Position numbers and translations under genes: made by a program. The notes under the pieces were generated by a model that was not told the origin of the DNA, made no database searches, and saw nothing but the letters and a program-made list of their open reading frames with translations. A DNA stretch of 64,000 nucleotides from Pseudomonas urmiensis (GTDB lineage Bacteria > Pseudomonadota > Gammaproteobacteria > Pseudomonadales > Pseudomonadaceae), in contig NZ_JABWRE020000001.1 in assembly GCF_014268815.2 (NCBI RefSeq), positions 2,175,001 to 2,239,000 of the forward strand. Direction: 5' to 3'. Positions within the stretch are counted from its first letter, which is position 1, and the number at the start of each line of letters is the position of its first letter. This document shows positions 20,235 to 28,123 of the stretch, piece after piece.

Positions 20235-20410
20235 TTAGGTCTGCTCAGATGGATCAGGCGTGCCGCAGGAACAACCCCCATCCGGCACCGTTCACCATTA
20301 CGATGCCCCGTGGCACAGGCTTCACAGCAATAAGCCTTGCCCCCTTGCTGCACGGCATTGGCGTCTACCGTGCAATTGCAGTGTGGGCAGGCGCAGCGTT
20401 GCTCTTTCAT
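20235..20410 (-). pseudogene. Metallothionein with a -1 frameshift in a G run
   Basis: N-terminal 44 codons encode a clear pseudomonad metallothionein (EQRCACPHCNCTVDANAV, YCCEACATGH, CRM), with Cys at positions 6, 8, 11, 13, 28, 29, 32 and 42, the PmtA spacing. After CRM the frame leaves the family. Shifting one base restores GGCSCGTPDPSEQT and a stop at 20235, putting the last two Cys at 47 and 49, again as in PmtA. The break lies in a run of five G (coding strand) at about 20276-20280 where six are needed. Without correction the protein reads on into a REP to 20105. It may be a true mutation, phase variation or a sequencing error. The start is 2 bases after the upstream gene. Confidence 0.85.
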
Positions 20411-20412
20411 GG

Positions 20413-20889
20413 TCAGCTCCTTTTCTCTTCATCGTGCGAATCAACCGGCGAGACCTCATCGGTCCAGGGCTCGCCGTCCAGCGGTGCTGAGCGGGCCAGC
20501 TCTGCTTCATCCAGGCCAATCCCACCGCCAATCTCATTGGCCTCGACTTCGCGCAGGGTTTGATCAGCCGGGCCATCGCCGTCACCCAGTTCATCGGCAT
20601 CGCGGGCACCGGTCTCGTCATACAAGGTGTCGGGGCTAAGGTCGTCGAGGGTGACGTTGTCCTCGTGCAGGCTGTCGCTCAGCGCCTCACCGCCGGTCAT
20701 GCCACTCTCGGCAACGCGCCGGGCGGGGTATTCGTGGTCCACTTCGCGTGCCGGACGCTCATCGCCAATGCGGCCTCGGCGCTGGTCATTGCGCTCGTCG
20801 AAATCCAGTTCGTGGACGCTGCCCATACGGTCCTCGGTGTCGTCGATCTCGACCTGAGGGCGGTTTTTCCGATCATCTGGCTGGGCCAT
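20413..20889 (-). CDS. Acidic hydrophilic protein, so-called serine kinase/phosphatase family
   Basis: 158 residues, very rich in Asp and Glu, without hydrophobic segments, probably disordered. It opens MAQPDDRKNRPQVEIDDTED and contains DNVTLDDLSPDTLYDETGARDADE. Pseudomonad proteins of this type are often labelled serine kinase/phosphatase, but I see no kinase or phosphatase motif and would not assert that activity. Its stop lies 2 bases before the metallothionein start, whose AAGGAG lies inside this gene, so they form one transcript. It is divergent from ligD. Confidence 0.78.
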   Translation of the reverse strand: MAQPDDRKNRPQVEIDDTEDRMGSVHELDFDERNDQRRGRIGDERPAREVDHEYPARRVAESGMTGGEALSDSLHEDNVTLDDLSPDTLYDETGARDADELGDGDGPADQTLREVEANEIGGGIGLDEAELARSAPLDGEPWTDEVSPVDSHDEEKRS

Positions 20890-21042
20890 CTTGGTTCTCC
20901 GGCAAAGGGTTCATTCGGTCGACTGCCAACCCCTGGCAATGATTCAGAGTTTCTGCCAGGTGGCGCCTGCCAACAGATTGAACTCTGTCTGGCGCCGGCC
21001 TCTCCCACCTCTAGAGACCCGCGAATCGTCCCGGAGCCGGCC

Positions 21043-23532
21043 ATGGCCAAACCCTTGCAGGAGTACCAACGCAAGCGCGACTTCAGCGCTACCCCTGAGC
21101 CTGCTGGCAAGCGCCAGCGCGGCAAGCAGGTGCATGCCTTGCAGTACTGCATCCAGAAACACGATGCCAGCCACCTGCACTACGACTTTCGCCTGGAGCT
21201 CGATGGCACGCTGAAAAGCTGGGCCATCCCCAAGGGGCCGTCTCTGGATCCGAAGGTCCGGCGCCTGGCCGTGCACGTCGAAGATCACCCGCTCGATTAC
21301 GCCGATTTCGAGGGCAATATCCCCGAGGGGCACTACGGCGCGGGCGATGTGATCGTCTGGGACCGCGGCATCTGGGAGCCCGAAGGCGATCCGCATGCCA
21401 GCTACGCCAAGGGCAAGCTGCGTTTTCGCTTGCAAGGAGAAAAGCTCTCCGGGGTGTGGAACCTGTTTCGCACTCATCTGGCAGGCAAGAAAGAGCAGTG
21501 GATGCTGGTCAAGTCGCATGATGACGAGGCGCGTAGCGAAGCCGAATACAGCATCGTCGAGGCGCAACCTGATAGCGTGCTCAGTGATCGCACGCTGGTG
21601 TCCCGGCGCGCCAAGGTCGCCGACCAACCGGCCAAGCGCCCCGCGGCCAGCCGCAAGCGCGCCAGCTCTACAGCCAAGACAGCGTTGCCTGATCATTTGC
21701 AGCCGCAACTGGCGACCCTGGTCGACTCCCCACCCAGCGGCGATTGGCACTATGAGGTGAAATTCGACGGCTACCGGATTCTGGCCCGCATCGATGGCGA
21801 GGACGTGCGCCTGTTCACCCGCAACGGCCATGACTGGAGCGCGAAGATGCCGCATCAGGTGCAGGCGCTGCGCAAGCTCAAGCTCAAGTCCGCCTGGCTC
21901 GACGGCGAAATGGTGGTCACTGGCGACAACGGCGTGGCTGATTTTCAAGCGTTGCAGAACGCCTTCGACACCGAGCGCGACGAGCAGATCAGCTACTACC
22001 TGTTCGACCTGCCGTTCTTCGATGGCCAGGACCTGCGCCAGGCGCCGCTGCAGGCGCGTCGTGAGCAGCTTGCCAAGCTGTTGAAGAAAGATCGCAGCGA
22101 TGTGCTCAATTTTTCCGCCGATTTCGATGAGCCGGTGCAGTCGTTGCTCGACAGTGCTTGCCGCCTGGGGCTTGAAGGGCTGATTGGCAAGCGCCTGGAC
22201 AGCCCCTACGTCAGCCGCCGCAGCAATGACTGGATCAAGCTCAAGTGCCAACAGCGCCAGGAATTCGTCATCGTCGGCTACACCGATCCCAAGGGCAGCC
22301 GCAGTGGCTTCGGCGCCTTGCTGCTGGCGCTGCATGACAGCGACAGCGGCGCGCTGCGCTATGCCGGCAAGGTCGGCACCGGGTTCACCGCCACCACCCT
22401 GGCCAGTATTCATGCCCGGCTCAAGCCCCTTGAGGTCGGCAAATCCGCCCTGGCCAAGCCACCCACAGGCGCCGAGGCGCGTGGCGTGCATTGGCTCAAG
22501 CCGACGCTGCTGGCCGAGGTCGCCTATGCCCAGATGACCCGCGACGGCGTGGTGCGCCATGCGGTGTTTCATGGCCTTCGCGACGACAAGCCGGCGCAGT
22601 CGATCGACCTGGAACGCCCGGCGAACAAAACCGCCAAGAACAAGGAGAACACGCTTTTGAGCGACCTGCACCTGACCCACCCCGAGCGGGTCATCGACGC
22701 CACCACGGGTGTGACCAAACGCGAGATCGCCGAGTACTACGCTGACGTCGCCAAGTGGCTCATGCCCCAGCTGAAAAACCGCCCCGTGGCGCTGGTCCGC
22801 GCCCCTGAGGGGCTAAGCGGCGAGCTGTTCTTTCAAAAAAATGCCGGCCAGCTGCACATCCCAGGCGTGCTCAGTTACGAAAAAGCCGAGGCGGGCCAGG
22901 CGGCGATGGTCCTCAATCGGCCTGACTCGTTACTGGGCGCGGTGCAGATGAACATGCTCGAACTGCACACCTGGAACGCCACCGACAAGGATTTCGACAA
23001 GCCCGATCGGTTCGTCCTGGACCTCGACCCAGACCCTGCGCTGCCGTGGAAATCGATGGTCGAGGCGACCCAGTTGACCCTGACCCTGCTCGATGAGCTG
23101 GGTTTGAAGGTGTTCCTCAAGACCAGCGGCGGCAAGGGCATGCACCTGGTCATACCGCTGAGCCGGCGCGACAGCTGGGACCAGGTCAAGGACTTCAGTC
23201 ACGCCATCGTCGACTACCTGGCCAAGCTGTTTCCGGATCGGCTCAGTGCGGTGTCCGGGCCGAAAAACCGCGTCGGACGGATCTTCATCGACTACCTGCG
23301 CAACGGCAAAGGCGCCACCACCGCGTGCGCCTATTCGCTGCGCGCGCGCGAAGGGCTACCGGTCTCGGTGCCGATCTGGCGCGAAGAGCTGACCCAGCTC
23401 AAGGCCGCCAATCAATGGACTATCAGCACTATTCGCGAGCGTCTGGCCGAGGTCGATGACCCCTGGGCGCAGTTAGGCAAAACCCGCCAGATGATTACCG
23501 CGCGGATGCGCAAGCAGCTGGGGTTGACGTAA
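21043..23532 (+). CDS. ligD: Multidomain DNA ligase D (end joining)
   Basis: 829-residue NHEJ enzyme in the Pseudomonas order phosphoesterase, ligase, polymerase. The 3'-phosphoesterase (1 to about 160) shows His40, His46, Asp48 and Arg50 (QKHDASHLHYDFRLE). The ATP-dependent ligase (about 210 to 520) has nucleotidyl-acceptor Lys240 in VKFDGYR. The primase/polymerase (about 540 to 829) has metal-binding Asp660 and Asp662 (LDLDPDP). The ATG at 21043 has GGAG upstream; the open frame further upstream runs antisense to the acidic gene and is not credible. It works with Ku, encoded at 27251-28123 on the other strand. Confidence 0.97.
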   Translation: MAKPLQEYQRKRDFSATPEPAGKRQRGKQVHALQYCIQKHDASHLHYDFRLELDGTLKSWAIPKGPSLDPKVRRLAVHVEDHPLDYADFEGNIPEGHYGAGDVIVWDRGIWEPEGDPHASYAKGKLRFRLQGEKLSGVWNLFRTHLAGKKEQWMLVKSHDDEARSEAEYSIVEAQPDSVLSDRTLVSRRAKVADQPAKRPAASRKRASSTAKTALPDHLQPQLATLVDSPPSGDWHYEVKFDGYRILARIDGEDVRLFTRNGHDWSAKMPHQVQALRKLKLKSAWLDGEMVVTGDNGVADFQALQNAFDTERDEQISYYLFDLPFFDGQDLRQAPLQARREQLAKLLKKDRSDVLNFSADFDEPVQSLLDSACRLGLEGLIGKRLDSPYVSRRSNDWIKLKCQQRQEFVIVGYTDPKGSRSGFGALLLALHDSDSGALRYAGKVGTGFTATTLASIHARLKPLEVGKSALAKPPTGAEARGVHWLKPTLLAEVAYAQMTRDGVVRHAVFHGLRDDKPAQSIDLERPANKTAKNKENTLLSDLHLTHPERVIDATTGVTKREIAEYYADVAKWLMPQLKNRPVALVRAPEGLSGELFFQKNAGQLHIPGVLSYEKAEAGQAAMVLNRPDSLLGAVQMNMLELHTWNATDKDFDKPDRFVLDLDPDPALPWKSMVEATQLTLTLLDELGLKVFLKTSGGKGMHLVIPLSRRDSWDQVKDFSHAIVDYLAKLFPDRLSAVSGPKNRVGRIFIDYLRNGKGATTACAYSLRAREGLPVSVPIWREELTQLKAANQWTISTIRERLAEVDDPWAQLGKTRQMITARMRKQLGLT

Positions 23533-23780
23533 TGGAACGCTGGATCGACATGCTGCAATGGCCCGCCATGCTCCTGACCGTACTGGCCGCCTGGTGCATT
23601 GGCTCGCGCCAGCCCGGGCGGCGGCGACTGGGTTTTTGCTGCTTTATCACCAGCAACGTGTTGTGGGTGCTGTGGGGCTGGCAGATCCAGGCCTGGGCGC
23701 TGATCGTGCTGCAGTTCTGCCTGGCAGCCATGAACCTGCGCGGCTGGAAGAAGAACATGAGCATGGAGTCGCAGACATGA
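23532..23780 (+). CDS. Small membrane protein of unknown function
   Basis: 82 residues with two or three hydrophobic stretches (about 8 to 24, 34 to 49 and 52 to 68) and a basic loop RQPGRRRLG, Trp-rich (WVLWGWQIQAW). The ATG at 23532 overlaps the ligD stop, and its own stop overlaps the next gene's ATG, so it couples ligD translation to the downstream operon. I recognise no family beyond a general small inner-membrane protein. It is a candidate membrane anchor for the operon that follows. Confidence 0.8.
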   Translation: MERWIDMLQWPAMLLTVLAAWCIGSRQPGRRRLGFCCFITSNVLWVLWGWQIQAWALIVLQFCLAAMNLRGWKKNMSMESQT

Positions 23781-24820
23781 ATACCTTTTCACATCTTGCC
23801 CCACCGCGCCTGGAAGGCCTGCTACAGGCATTCGCCGAGCGCAAGCAGCCGCTGCTGATCGAGGATCAGCTGGCGCAGCTGATGCGCGCGCTGCAGGCCG
23901 ATCATCTGGATGTGCTGCCGTTGCCAGGTCAAGGCCAGACCCTGCAACGTTGGCAGATCCTGGCGCAAGTCGCTGGCTGCGACCTGGCACTGGCCAAGCT
24001 CTACGAAGGGCACACCGACGCCCTGGCGATTCTGGCCGAATGCGGTGCACCGGAACTGGCAGATGATGGCATCTGGGGGGTGTACGCCGCTGAGCCGCCC
24101 GATGCTCGGGTAGAGATCGTCGACCGTGCCGGCGACCAGCTGCGTCTGCGCGGGCGCAAGGCCTGGTGTTCGGGTGCCTTGCAGATCGACCGCGCGTTGA
24201 TCACGGCCTGGGACCAGAATCAGCAGCCGCAACTGGTGGCCATCGATTTGTCCGATCCCAGTCTCACTCTTGCGGCGGATCATTGGCAGGCGGTGGGCAT
24301 GGCCAGCACTGCCAGCGCCGATATCCTCTTCGACGACTCGCTTGGCACCGCGGTGGGCCAACCGGGTCAGTACCTGGCCCGCCCTGGGTTCTGGCACGGC
24401 GGCGCAGGGATCGCCGCGTGCTGGTATGGCGCGGCGCAGGCGCTCGCTGGGTATTTGCGTGCGCATTGCGCAAAGCCGAGCCCCGAGCCGCACGCCGCTG
24501 CCCACCTTGGCGCTGTAGATGCGGCGCTCCTGGGTGCCAGCGCCGCCCTGCGCGAATGTGCCGGCTGGATCGACCAGCAGCCGATGGCGGACGCCAGTTT
24601 GCAGGTACGCCGCACCCGCGCCCAAGTCGAGCAGGCGGTGGACTGCGTGATCCAGCACGTCGGCCGCGCCCTTGGCGCCACCCCGTTCTGCCGCAACAGT
24701 CACTTCGCCAGGCTCAGCGCCGACCTGCCGGTCTATCTGCGGCAAAGCCATGCCGAACGCGATCTGGCTGCCCTTGGCGTACAGCTGGCGCAGCTGCCAA
24801 CAGGAGCCTGGCAACTATGA
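23777..24820 (+). CDS. Acyl-CoA dehydrogenase-like protein (divergent)
   Basis: 347 residues, shorter than the usual 380 or so. The N-terminal helical part and central beta domain (WGVYAAEPPDARVEIV, LRGRKAWCSGALQID) fit the acyl-CoA dehydrogenase fold. The C-terminal four-helix region ends RQSHAERDLAALG. I cannot find the usual catalytic Glu motif YEGSSEI in it, so classical alpha-beta dehydrogenation is doubtful; it may be a flavin oxidase or monooxygenase of the same fold. ATGA overlaps on both sides tie it to the small membrane protein and the PIG-L deacetylase. Confidence 0.85.
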   Translation: MNTFSHLAPPRLEGLLQAFAERKQPLLIEDQLAQLMRALQADHLDVLPLPGQGQTLQRWQILAQVAGCDLALAKLYEGHTDALAILAECGAPELADDGIWGVYAAEPPDARVEIVDRAGDQLRLRGRKAWCSGALQIDRALITAWDQNQQPQLVAIDLSDPSLTLAADHWQAVGMASTASADILFDDSLGTAVGQPGQYLARPGFWHGGAGIAACWYGAAQALAGYLRAHCAKPSPEPHAAAHLGAVDAALLGASAALRECAGWIDQQPMADASLQVRRTRAQVEQAVDCVIQHVGRALGATPFCRNSHFARLSADLPVYLRQSHAERDLAALGVQLAQLPTGAWQL

Positions 24821-25572
24821 GCGAAAACCTGATCCAGTCCAGCACTGGCACCCCGTGGGCCGACTGGCAACACTCTGCGCACCTGGCCCGGGCCAGTTGG
24901 ATCGCCCCCCAGCAGCTATGTCCGCCAGGCCGCCGCCTGGTGCTGGTGGCGCCGCACCCGGACGATGAAATCCTCATGGCTGGCGGTTTGCTGGCCAGCT
25001 TCAAGGGCCGTGAACAGGAGCTGGTGCTGATCTCGGTCACCGATGGCGAAGGCAGTCACCCACATTCGACACAATGGACCGAGCATCGCCTGCGCCGCCA
25101 GCGCCCACTGGAGAGTCGCCATGCCTTGCAACAACTGGAACTGGACCTCAATACCCTGGACTGGCGGCGACTGAACCTCAAAGACGGCGCCCTGTCCCGC
25201 GACGAGGCGTTTCTGGTCAATCACCTGAACCAGCTGCTCAAGCCCGACGACCTGCTCCTGACCACTTGGCGCAACGATGGCCATTGCGATCACGAGGCGG
25301 TTGGCCGTGCTGCCGCTCAAGCGGCGCTGGCGCGCAAGGCGCAGCTGGCCGAGGTGCCGGTATGGGCCTGGCACTGGGCGACCCCAGACGACCCCCGCCT
25401 GCCCTGGCCACGAGCGCATCGTATCCAGTTGGGTGAGGCCCTTGTGGCCCGTAAGCGTCAGGCGCTCGCCGCCCATGCCAGCCAGTTGCAGCCTGACGGC
25501 GACACGCCAGCGGTGCTGCCCCAACGTTTGCTCGATTGCCTACTGCAACCTTTCGAATTGGTATTCCTATGA
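24817..25572 (+). CDS. PIG-L/LmbE family deacetylase
   Basis: 251 residues with the zinc-site motif APHPDDEILMAGG (about residues 45 to 57), the family signature for N-acetyl-sugar deacetylases such as GlcNAc-PI de-N-acetylase and MshB. A later HCDHEAVGRAA supplies the expected His ligand. About 30 residues precede the core. It overlaps both neighbours by four bases. In other bacteria this domain is found fused to a class I methyltransferase like the next gene, supporting a joint pathway. The substrate is unknown; an N-acetylated amino sugar is the natural guess. Confidence 0.92.
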   Translation: MSENLIQSSTGTPWADWQHSAHLARASWIAPQQLCPPGRRLVLVAPHPDDEILMAGGLLASFKGREQELVLISVTDGEGSHPHSTQWTEHRLRRQRPLESRHALQQLELDLNTLDWRRLNLKDGALSRDEAFLVNHLNQLLKPDDLLLTTWRNDGHCDHEAVGRAAAQAALARKAQLAEVPVWAWHWATPDDPRLPWPRAHRIQLGEALVARKRQALAAHASQLQPDGDTPAVLPQRLLDCLLQPFELVFL

Positions 25573-26168
25573 GCCTCGATGCGCAGTACTTCGCCCAGTT
25601 GTATGCCGGTAATGATGACCCCTGGGCCTTTCGCACCCGCTGGTACGAGCGGCGCAAGCGCGACCTGGTCATGGCCAGCCTCCCACGCCAATGCTACGAG
25701 CGAGTGTTCGAGCCGGCCTGCGCCAATGGCGAACTCAGCGTATTGCTGGCCGATCGCTGTGCCAGCTTGCTGTGCCAGGACCTTGACCCCACCGCAGTGA
25801 ACCTTGCCCGTGAGCGACTGGCCGGAGTGGATCATGCCCGCGTCGAACAAGGCCACTTGCCCGCAGACTGGCCGGGGCAACGCTTCGACCTGATCGTGTT
25901 GAGTGAAGTGGGTTATTACCTGGATCCGACCGATTGGCTGCAAGTCATCGAGCAATCGGTCGCCAGCCTTGACTACGACGGCGGCCTGCTGGCTTGTCAT
26001 TGGCGCCATCCGATTGCCGGTTGCCCGCAGGATGGCCGCCACGTGCATGACCTGCTGGCCAAGCATTTGCCGCTGTACCCCGTGCTTCGCCATGAAGAAG
26101 CCGATTTTCTGCTCGAATACTGGTCATGTCAGCCCAGCGTGGTCGACCTGGATGAGAGGTGCGAATGA
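25569..26168 (+). CDS. SAM-dependent methyltransferase, NodS-like
   Basis: 199 residues. The start YFAQLYAGNDDPWAFRTRWYERRKRDL resembles the NodS family, the N-methyltransferases of rhizobial Nod factor. It is followed by a SAM-binding motif VFEPACANGELSVLLADRC (Glu in place of the usual first Gly-rich loop residues) and DLIVLSEVGYYL. Start and stop overlap the neighbours by four bases. With a deacetylase before it and a glycosyltransferase after it, N-methylation of a freed sugar amine is a reasonable inference. Confidence 0.9.
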   Translation: MSLDAQYFAQLYAGNDDPWAFRTRWYERRKRDLVMASLPRQCYERVFEPACANGELSVLLADRCASLLCQDLDPTAVNLARERLAGVDHARVEQGHLPADWPGQRFDLIVLSEVGYYLDPTDWLQVIEQSVASLDYDGGLLACHWRHPIAGCPQDGRHVHDLLAKHLPLYPVLRHEEADFLLEYWSCQPSVVDLDERCE

Positions 26169-26827
26169 TTGCAGTGATCATCCCCGCGCATAACGAAGCC
26201 CGGCGTCTGGGGCGATGCCTGAAATCGGTCAAGGCCGCCGCTCTGCTGGCCGAGCAGGCAGGCCATCGGGTCGAGGTGTTGGTCGTGCTCGATCGCTGCA
26301 GCGACGGCAGTGCCGCCATTGCGAGGCGCCATGGGGTCGACACGCTCGCCGTCGATGCGGGTAACGTGGGCGTTGCCCGGCGTGCCGGGGCGGCGCTGAT
26401 GCTTGAACGTGGCGCCTCGTGGTTGGCCTGTACAGACGCCGACAGCCGCGTGCCCAGTCATTGGCTGTTGTGGCAGCTCGCCTGTGCCGCCGATGCGGTG
26501 TGCGGCACCGTGCACATCGAGCGTTGGCAGCCCTGGCAGAAGGCGGCGTTGCGCGAGCTGTATCGCAGCCGCTATGAAGCGCGTGAGGGGCATCGGCATA
26601 TCCACGGGGCGAACCTGGGCGTGTGCGCCAAGGCGTATGAAAAAGTGGGCGGGTTCGCGCCGTTGCCGGCGCATGAAGATGTGCATCTGGTACGTGCGTT
26701 GGAAGCCCACGGAGCGCAGATCGTCTGGACGGCCAAGCACAGTGTCGCGACCAGTAGCCGGCGGGACAGCCGTGCCCGCGAAGGCTTTGGGGATTATCTG
26801 GCGGGGTTGGAAACTGTGAGTGTTTGA
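26165..26827 (+). CDS. Family 2 glycosyltransferase
   Basis: 220 residues with a GT-A fold: IIPAHNEARRLGRCLKS at the start, VLVVLDRCSDGSAAIA for nucleotide-sugar binding, and CTDADSRVP holding the DxD metal motif. No membrane segments are visible, so it differs from processive NodC-type synthases. It is the last gene of the operon and its start overlaps the methyltransferase stop. Its 3' end runs into the first copy of a 135-base tandem repeat, so the last residues may be repeat-derived. Confidence 0.9.
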   Translation: MIAVIIPAHNEARRLGRCLKSVKAAALLAEQAGHRVEVLVVLDRCSDGSAAIARRHGVDTLAVDAGNVGVARRAGAALMLERGASWLACTDADSRVPSHWLLWQLACAADAVCGTVHIERWQPWQKAALRELYRSRYEAREGHRHIHGANLGVCAKAYEKVGGFAPLPAHEDVHLVRALEAHGAQIVWTAKHSVATSSRRDSRAREGFGDYLAGLETVSV

Positions 26828-27232
26828 GGGGCTGTGCTGGCCTTTTCGCGGGCAAGCCCGCTCCCACAGGGATCGCGGTGTTTTCAGATCTGCGCTGTGC
26901 CTTTTGAAGACGCAAGCACAGCGCAAACTGGAAATCACCTAGATTACTGTGTGAGTGTTGAGGGCTGTGCTGGCCTCTTCGCGGGCAAGCCCGCTCCCAC
27001 AGGGATCGTGGTGTTTTCAGGTCTGGGCTGTGCCTTTTGAAGACGCAAGTACAGCGCGCACTGGAGAACAACTAGATTACTGTGTGAGTGTTGAGGGGCT
27101 GTGCTGGCCTCTTCGCAGGCAAGCCCACTTCCCCAGGGATCGCGGTGTTTTCAGGTCATTGGAGCCACAAGCACAGCGCGCACTGGAGAACACCTAGATC
27201 CCTGTGGGAGCGGGCTTGCCCGCGAAGAGGCC
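26816..27232 (+). repeat. Three-copy tandem repeat built on REP elements, with a terminal inverted REP
   Basis: Near-identical units start at about 26816, 26951 and 27084 (period about 133 to 135). Each contains GTGAGTGTTGAGG, a REP (GCGGGCAAGCCCGCTCCC, slightly altered in copy 3), a GTGTTTTCAGG stretch and an AAGNACAGCGC tract. Copy 3 is shortened after TTTTCAGG. A REP in the opposite orientation ends the array (27200-27232). No gene is visible in this 424-base gap between the glycosyltransferase and ku. Confidence 0.88.
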
Positions 27233-27250
27233 GATACAGTCCCCATAAGA

Positions 27251-28123
27251 TCAAGAAGCCTTGCGCGTGCGCTTGGCTGGTTTCTTGTCAGTTTCTTTGG
27301 CCGGTGCAGCCTTCTTCTTCGGCGCAGGCGCCCCCTTGCCACCCAGGCTGCGTTTGAGCAGCTCGGTCAAGTCGATGATATCGGCGCCTTTCGAAGCGCC
27401 CTCGCCTTCGGCTTTCTCCACCACGCTGATCTTGCCTTTGCTGGCCTTTTCTTCGACCAGGTCCATGATGGTCTGGCGGAAGGCATCGTGATATTCGTCG
27501 GGGTTCCACGGCCCGCTCATGTCCTGCACCAGCCGCTTGGCCATGTCCAGCTCACGCTTGTCGAGCTTGCTGTCGGTCACGCTCTTGTCCAGCTCCAGGG
27601 TATCGATGCCGCGCACTTCCTCGGGCCAGCGCAAGGTGATCATCACCAGCGCATCCTCAAGCGGCCGCAGCAGCGCCAAGTGTTGCCGGGTGTGCAAGAC
27701 CACCGTGGCCAGGGCCACCTTGCCGGTGCCTTCCAAGGTTTCGCGCAGCAAGGCATAGACCTTGCCGCCACGCCGGTCTGGGCTCAGGTAGTAGGGGGTA
27801 TCGAAGTGCTGCAAGGGAATGTCACTGGCCTCGACGAACGAAAAGATGTCGATGGTCTGGGTCGCTTCCGGGCGGGCATTGCGGATTTCTTCTTCGCTGA
27901 TGATCACGTAGCGGCCTTTCTCGTACTGCACGCCCTTGACGATGTTGTCCTTGTCGATTTCCTTGCCGGTGGCCTTGTTCACCCGTTTGTAGCCGACCGG
28001 ATCCATGCTGCGCTTGTCCAGCCAGTCGAAATCGACCCGCTCGGTACGCACGGCGGTGTTGAGGGTGACAGGGATGTGCACGAGGCCGAAGCTGATCGCG
28101 CCTTTCCAGATTGCCCGGGCCAT
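27251..28123 (-). CDS. ku: Ku homodimeric DNA end-binding protein
   Basis: 290-residue bacterial Ku. The core starts MARAIWKGAISFGLVHIPV and contains the bridge region ETLEGTGKVALATVVLHTRQHL. A Lys/Ala-rich tail (about 255 to 290, KKKAAPAKETDKKPAKRTRK) matches the basic C-terminal extensions that help DNA threading. Ku binds double-strand breaks and recruits LigD, encoded 3.7 kb away on the other strand. AGGAG lies before the ATG. A 45-residue Cys-rich gene ends 13 bases upstream and is probably cotranscribed. Confidence 0.97.
   Translation of the reverse strand: MARAIWKGAISFGLVHIPVTLNTAVRTERVDFDWLDKRSMDPVGYKRVNKATGKEIDKDNIVKGVQYEKGRYVIISEEEIRNARPEATQTIDIFSFVEASDIPLQHFDTPYYLSPDRRGGKVYALLRETLEGTGKVALATVVLHTRQHLALLRPLEDALVMITLRWPEEVRGIDTLELDKSVTDSKLDKRELDMAKRLVQDMSGPWNPDEYHDAFRQTIMDLVEEKASKGKISVVEKAEGEGASKGADIIDLTELLKRSLGGKGAPAPKKKAAPAKETDKKPAKRTRKAS

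Follow-up and report, generated by a model that had tools for sequence, protein, structure and literature searches.

The stretch analysed here, 64,000 nucleotides of a Pseudomonas contig (NZ_JABWRE020000001.1; hereafter the window), carries behind the end-joining gene ligD a cassette that encodes a flavoprotein with the acyl-CoA-dehydrogenase fold, a deacetylase of the PIG-L type, a methyltransferase resembling NodS and a GT2 glycosyltransferase. The five plus-strand open reading frames downstream of ligD are all intact; ligD and these five genes follow one another without gaps, with junctions that overlap by 1, 4, 4, 4 and 4 bases, as an earlier note on this DNA had described for every junction from ligD to the GT2 gene (1 to 4 bases). 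The closest named relatives of the flavoprotein, at 95 percent identity, come from P. urmiensis, P. putida supplies further close ones, and by sequence the source appears to be a Pseudomonas close to the P. putida group. The features, in window positions, are these:

21043..23532, plus strand: ligD, 829 residues, with PE, ligase and primase-polymerase domains and an ATG at 21043; the cassette's host gene in this lineage.
23532..23780, plus strand: small membrane protein, 82 residues, with about three hydrophobic stretches and a weak PnuC-like match; an optional member.
23777..24820, plus strand: acyl-CoA-dehydrogenase-fold flavoprotein, 347 residues, lacking the catalytic glutamate and carrying a KAWCSGA motif; predicted flavin-dependent oxygenase.
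24817..25572, plus strand: PIG-L (LmbE-like) de-N-acetylase, 251 residues, with PHPDDE and GHCDH motifs intact.
25569..26168, plus strand: NodS-like S-adenosylmethionine-dependent methyltransferase, 199 residues, a predicted N-methyltransferase; PDB 4ISC is an orthologue.
26165..26827, plus strand: GT2 glycosyltransferase, 220 residues, with a GT-A fold, DxD (D91-A92-D93) and ED (E171-D172).
27251..28123, minus strand: ku, convergent with ligD beyond a repeat array; context, outside the cassette.

Four of these genes (flavoprotein, PIG-L, methyltransferase and GT2) form a conserved core that is more general than the earlier note supposed. Among 299 genomes of Pseudomonadota, the only phylum surveyed, the flavoprotein is present in 16 (E <= 1e-20), a methyltransferase gene lies within 1 kb of it in 16/16, and a PIG-L gene stands between or beside the two in 14/16 (exceptions L026 and L031). 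GT2 is found in 12/16 of these cassettes, the window counted, and a more divergent GT2-type enzyme in L031 and L033. For these neighbour counts some queries were drawn from L031 and L032 themselves, and matches were judged by sequence similarity only. The methyltransferase itself has a match in 31/299 genomes. Co-occurrence of the genes is therefore not rare, and its recurrence in 16 genomes supports the earlier note's view that a deacetylase, an amino-sugar-type N-methyltransferase and a glycosyltransferase belong to one pathway unit. Within the window's own genus, 152/249 genomes carry the flavoprotein (E <= 1e-30). A scan of contigs by exact peptides of the window flavoprotein, which favours its close relatives, yielded 96 relatives, from which 80 named loci were retained; within 6 kb of the flavoprotein gene, a PIG-L gene occurs in all 80, a methyltransferase gene in 79 and a GT2 gene in 73. 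Furthermore, the four proteins diverge in step across 26 loci, their pairwise distances correlating at r 0.84-0.93, as do the three proteins other than GT2 across 28 loci (r 0.87 to 0.93), in both cases uncorrected for species relatedness. The unit extends to L151, where GT2, flavoprotein, PIG-L and methyltransferase genes stand in that order and the flavoprotein has exactly the sequence of a Sphingomonas sp. S1-29 entry. The clustering of the cassette genes is not due to chance.

The membrane gene does not share this conservation. The earlier note had proposed a five-gene operon, and in the window all five genes do overlap, but the membrane gene separates ligD from the flavoprotein gene in only 6/29 of the genus loci most like the window. 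Its product has a weak PnuC-like match (18.9 bits, cut-off 27.3). A relaxed search found homologues in 12 loci. Seven of these loci (L042, L179, L183, L184, L190, L195, L202) have the homologue in the interval from ligD to the flavoprotein gene, and five (L024, L106, L110, L111, L112) have it at another place; L152 gave a weaker match. Some of these homologues stand beside otsB (L024:12718-12951), divergent from the cassette (L106:7531-7767) or near it (L152:14799-15056). Given its irregular presence among ligD-linked loci, we rejected the membrane protein as a core member.

The flavoprotein is best regarded, from its sequence, as a flavin-dependent oxygenase rather than a dehydrogenase. Its structural model (mean predicted local distance difference test score, pLDDT, 90.5) shows a complete acyl-CoA-dehydrogenase fold. 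The window protein scores 26.1 bits against PF02770 (cut-off 33.3; the L019 protein passes at 34.4 bits) and does not match PF00441. In acyl-CoA dehydrogenases the catalytic glutamate is that of the YEG motif; in an alignment extended by eye its position falls on Ser324, adjoining Gln323 (Q323 in 33/33 cassette flavoproteins), which supports the absence of this residue suspected in the earlier note. A profile of the 33 cassette flavoproteins gave its best scores to TdsC, MsuC and DszC (E 6e-15 to 8e-14), followed by two entries deposited as type 2 domain proteins (1e-11), isobutyryl-CoA dehydrogenase (1e-10) and KijD3 (2e-9), with short-chain dehydrogenases and DnmZ (3e-7) in lower ranks. With the two-component flavin monooxygenases DszC, TdsC and MsuC the family shares a K-x-(W/F)-C-S-G motif: in KAWCSGA, S132 and G133 are present in 33/33 and C131 in 31/33 members, and C-S-G, including the equivalent of DszC Ser163, is common to all three enzymes. 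In contrast, sequence identity to them is low, at about 15 to 20 percent, the five genes include no sulfur gene, and the equivalent of DszC His92 is position 74 (Lys74 in the window), which is lysine in 30/33 and arginine in 3/33 members; His79, present in 33/33, aligns to the next histidine of DszC. The roles of His92 and Ser163 in DszC are assumed here. With lysine at the His92 position, the putative oxygenase site is only partly DszC-like.

If the flavoprotein were instead a true acyl-CoA or acyl-carrier dehydrogenase, the product would bear an unsaturated acyl group. Some relatives speak for this and against an oxygenase, since among the matches listed PF02770 is found in 17/120 close relatives and PF00441 in 5/120 relatives of the Sphingomonas member. 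Nevertheless, we regard a dehydrogenase as improbable: PF00441 is unmatched in the window protein, the catalytic position holds serine beside glutamine with a CSG motif present instead, and the family profile ranks SfnB- and DszC-like proteins of the same genome above two strong PF00441 dehydrogenases. Specifically, the window genome has 17 places that match PF00441, the cassette flavoprotein not among them, and in 26 frames from these places the profile gave two SfnB proteins 59.2 and 50.9 bits, one DszC-like protein, which falls below the DszC equivalog cut-off, 52.9 bits and one other 39.9 bits, against 33.8 and 33.6 bits for the two dehydrogenases.

The other three enzymes keep the domain assignments of the earlier note, each above its cut-off. 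PIG-L scores 89.2 bits against PF02585 (cut-off 28.2), has PHPDDE at residues 46-51 and histidines at 156 and 159, and finds diacetylchitobiose deacetylase in PDB; PHPDDE and both histidines of GHxDH are kept in 14/17 aligned copies, and the three exceptions are a second paralogue. This paralogue occurs in trehalose-linked cassettes (L019:11308-12123, L043:11067-11966, L047:11061-11981) and, in the three copies aligned, has PHPGDE for PHPDDE and threonine or asparagine for a GHxDH histidine; it is possibly a deacetylase-dead duplicate or a partner subunit. In the ligD-linked cassettes L201 and L204, which have no PIG-L match, the methyltransferase gene stands directly 3' of the flavoprotein gene. 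The methyltransferase reaches 41.2 bits against the Pfam NodS family PF05401 (cut-off 24) and 52 bits against the NCBIfam NodS equivalog NF041650 (cut-off 300), and is therefore NodS-like, not NodS. Its orthologue in PDB is 4ISC (E 6e-56 over residues 24-186), an entry named only Methyltransferase with no reaction listed, followed by NodS (1.6e-9) and a gentamicin N-methyltransferase (6e-5). GT2 matches PF00535 at 49.2 bits (cut-off 23.3) with a GT-A fold, and its DxD (D91, D93) and ED (E171-D172) motifs are invariant in 19 orthologues; its fold matches are broad (AvpGT, WrtF, TarP, heparosan synthase).

These enzyme types recall several known systems. In Nod-factor synthesis, NodC is the glycosyltransferase, NodB the deacetylase and NodS the N-methyltransferase, all acting on amino sugars, and the cassette likewise combines a GT2, a deacetylase and a methyltransferase of the Pfam NodS family. 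Unlike Nod-factor tailoring, however, it uses PIG-L rather than a polysaccharide deacetylase, adds a flavoprotein, has a GT2 of only 220 residues and a methyltransferase far below the NodS equivalog cut-off, and neither a NodA acyltransferase nor a NodB-type deacetylase was found among the five genes with Pfam and NCBIfam. In mycothiol and bacillithiol synthesis a glycosyltransferase and a PIG-L deacetylase (MshA/MshB, BshA/BshB) free an amine for tailoring. The cassette has the same pair, and BshB2, BshB1 and MshB are the best NCBIfam matches of its PIG-L, but at 37.7, 31.7 and 25.2 bits these fall far below the cut-offs of 195.25, 182.5 and 224.35; the amine is predicted to be methylated rather than coupled to cysteine, and BshC and MshC have no match among the five genes in the same two databases. 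KijD3 and DnmZ are amino-sugar oxygenases acting at nitrogen, and together with the gentamicin N-methyltransferase they represent the two enzyme types seen here, N-methylation and flavin oxidation of amino sugars, reactions that we take as given; the similarity is remote, and the five genes include no nucleotide-deoxysugar gene.

The earlier note had also mentioned fusions of PIG-L with methyltransferase domains. None was present in 25 of the 31 methyltransferase-positive genomes, all Pseudomonadota (window, L019-L033 and nine more in L146-L155; G051, G123, G171, G200, G253 and G274 were left out). A different fusion was seen instead in two distant homologues of the methyltransferase, with GT2, NodS and polysaccharide deacetylase domains in one chain of 976 residues in L153:6947-9877 (minus strand) and of 1001 in L154:6379-9384 (plus strand), so that these three activities are joined elsewhere with another type of deacetylase.

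The operons in front of the cassette vary, and ligD is one host among several. Among the 80 named loci, treY/glgX genes are present in 66, ligD in 8 and neither in 6 (L037, which keeps the cassette without a ligD match in its retrieved DNA, and five Duganella loci). The usual trehalose-linked order is treZ, malQ, treY, DUF2934 and glgX, then the cassette. ligD lies upstream in 27/29 retrieved genus loci most like the window, while 19 further genus loci, chosen lower in the list, comprise 3 with ligD, 7 with treY/glgX and 9 with neither; these counts describe the 29 and 19 loci, not the roughly 100 other genus matches, and give no genus-wide share. Other loci show further hosts. An otsA homologue stands upstream in L024 and L027 (in L024 with otsB beyond it), L028 has homologues of treZ and treY, the latter of 1709 residues, together with glgA, a glycosyltransferase/sucrose-phosphatase fusion adjoins it in L031, and a large catalase and CinA adjoin it in L026. 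Linkage to stress operons thus recurs without being universal, and linkage to ligD is a local feature of one lineage. Short ligD homologues lie upstream of the cassette at L041:7468-8004 and L205:3214-3840; that of L041, a frame of 179 codons, matches the N-terminal part of LigD only, so even the ligD host varies.

This distribution bears directly on the tie to end-joining repair suggested by the earlier note. The cassette overlaps ligD in the P. putida group, and in another class the cassette of L146 is adjoined by katE-/catalase-, ku- and ligD-like genes, as would be expected if the cassette itself took part in DNA end joining. Against this, 72/80 named loci have no ligD in the retrieved DNA, and Pfam and NCBIfam show no DNA-acting domain in any of the five gene products, which leaves such a role barely credible. 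Because trehalose genes are so much commoner than ligD among the named loci, we rejected a special end-joining tie as a general rule; the consistent linkage to ligD expected of an accessory to non-homologous end joining (NHEJ) was not found. The interpretation of the earlier note is, overall, partly supported.

The same neighbourhoods raise the possibility that trehalose, sucrose or a similar solute is the substrate, which the cassette would turn into a charged N-methylated oligosaccharide osmolyte. The 66 loci with treY/glgX, the otsA neighbours in L024 and L027 and the sucrose-phosphatase fusion of L031 are all consistent with this. However, the ligD-linked cassette of the window and the catalase-linked one of L026 have no adjacent solute gene, and the window genome has its own glgA-treZ-malQ-treY-DUF2934-glgX operon at a separate site without a cassette. 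We consider a modified solute unlikely.

A glycolipid or envelope glycan could also be the target, with PIG-L acting on a lipid-linked N-acetyl sugar before the methyltransferase and the flavoprotein desaturating an acyl chain. Eukaryotic PIG-L enzymes act on lipid-linked sugars, the window has a cardiolipin synthase gene and an MprF-flippase-like one upstream, and extra glycosyltransferases flank the cassettes of L146 and L150. Yet the five genes match no polyprenyl-phosphate or lipid-carrier transferase, flippase or polymerase in Pfam or NCBIfam, GT2 is a single compact GT-A domain, and the flavoprotein lacks the dehydrogenase glutamate; this alternative we judge rather unlikely. The clusters at L146:1572-5685 and L150:8502-14707 are wider: the cassette is joined there by a GT4, a GT2, a relative of an unassigned protein family (x392) and another GT2-type enzyme, which suggests a larger product in other classes. 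The x392 family has no Pfam match in L031 and L146, and its relative in L152 matches the GT28 C-terminal domain.

A reading that accommodates the composition and coupling of the cassette, the correlated divergence of its proteins, their motifs and the changing hosts is that the four genes form a biosynthetic unit complete in itself, which makes a small amino-sugar glycoside and is placed behind differing stress operons; we assign this reading a probability of about 0.5. The most likely course is a soluble pathway whose end product would be an amino-sugar metabolite, N-methylated and oxidised by the flavoprotein. GT2 would add an N-acetyl-hexosamine to a soluble acceptor, PIG-L would take off the acetyl group, the NodS-like enzyme would N-methylate the freed amine, and the flavoprotein, as an oxygenase dependent on flavin mononucleotide (FMN), would oxidise the product, perhaps at nitrogen. 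Sitting behind ligD, trehalose genes, otsA, catalase or the sucrose-phosphatase fusion, the cassette would thereby borrow the expression of these operons. We infer the order of the reactions, the substrate, the product and the regulation by stress; that the hosts share stress control is likewise presumed from general knowledge of them.

Several observations weigh against this biosynthetic reading. The five genes do not include a flavin reductase, the methyltransferase is distant from the NodS equivalog, the flavoprotein has its lysine in place of DszC His92, and the fold matches of GT2 fix neither donor nor acceptor. PIG-L has no match in the cassettes of L026, L031, L147, L148, L201 and L204, and GT2 has none in the 19-kb stretches of L019 and L022 or in the 9-kb stretches of L208, L209 and L216. 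A stress marker is directly beside the cassette in 8/16 cassettes of the phylum sample (window counted), and the markers were picked after the neighbourhoods had been viewed. The other eight (L021, L022, L023, L025, L029, L030, L032, L033) have none of the tested markers directly adjacent; otsA is 5.9 kb off in L025 and a ligD match 8.9 kb off in L030, and the neighbours include molybdenum hydroxylase genes in L021 and LacI, epimerase and PfkB in L022. L206-L214 and the five Duganella loci also lack an adjacent marker of those tested, having as neighbours SCO1, a copper chaperone, Nramp, GntR and others in the former and Nramp in the latter. Finally, the RpoS-type -10 element CTATACT has 0 matches across the window.

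A sigma-70 scan of 20400-27250 gave two sites, both on the minus strand (0.7 expected), and no promoter site on the plus strand, which is that of the cassette. With neither an RpoS -10 element nor a plus-strand sigma-70 site, co-regulation rests on operon structure and on the RpoS control that we presume for the hosts. Between the GT2 gene and ku, at 26813-27210, a 67-base repeat with inverted arms, which we take to be REP-like, occurs in three copies spaced by 133 and 134 bases.

Published work comes close to the cassette at its hosts. A study of the treY/Z operon in P. syringae deleted PSPTO3125 to glgX PSPTO3130 (PMC8982409), and going by the layout of the P. syringae locus L043 this deletion ends just short of the cassette. 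In an alphaproteobacterium, ku-ligD and katA are reported within the general stress regulon (PMC7083833). The main text of that paper does not mention acyl-CoA dehydrogenase, glycosyl, PIG-L, LmbE or methyltransferase, and PMC4727817 names ligD and none of those five terms. By title or abstract, we found no paper on the cassette among the open-licence papers searched.

The four genes probably make a methylated amino-sugar compound, through a cassette that is found in many proteobacteria and stands repeatedly beside stress-survival genes. More tentatively, and with more doubt than belief, the product may be an undescribed N-methylated, flavin-oxidised amino-sugar that aids survival generally in stationary, dry or salt-stressed cells of many proteobacteria, its genes having joined NHEJ, catalase, trehalose and sucrose operons in separate events. 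The four-enzyme pathway, with its flavoprotein found in those 152 genus genomes and in other classes, adjoins well-studied stress operons, and its product could be a new stress metabolite or signal.

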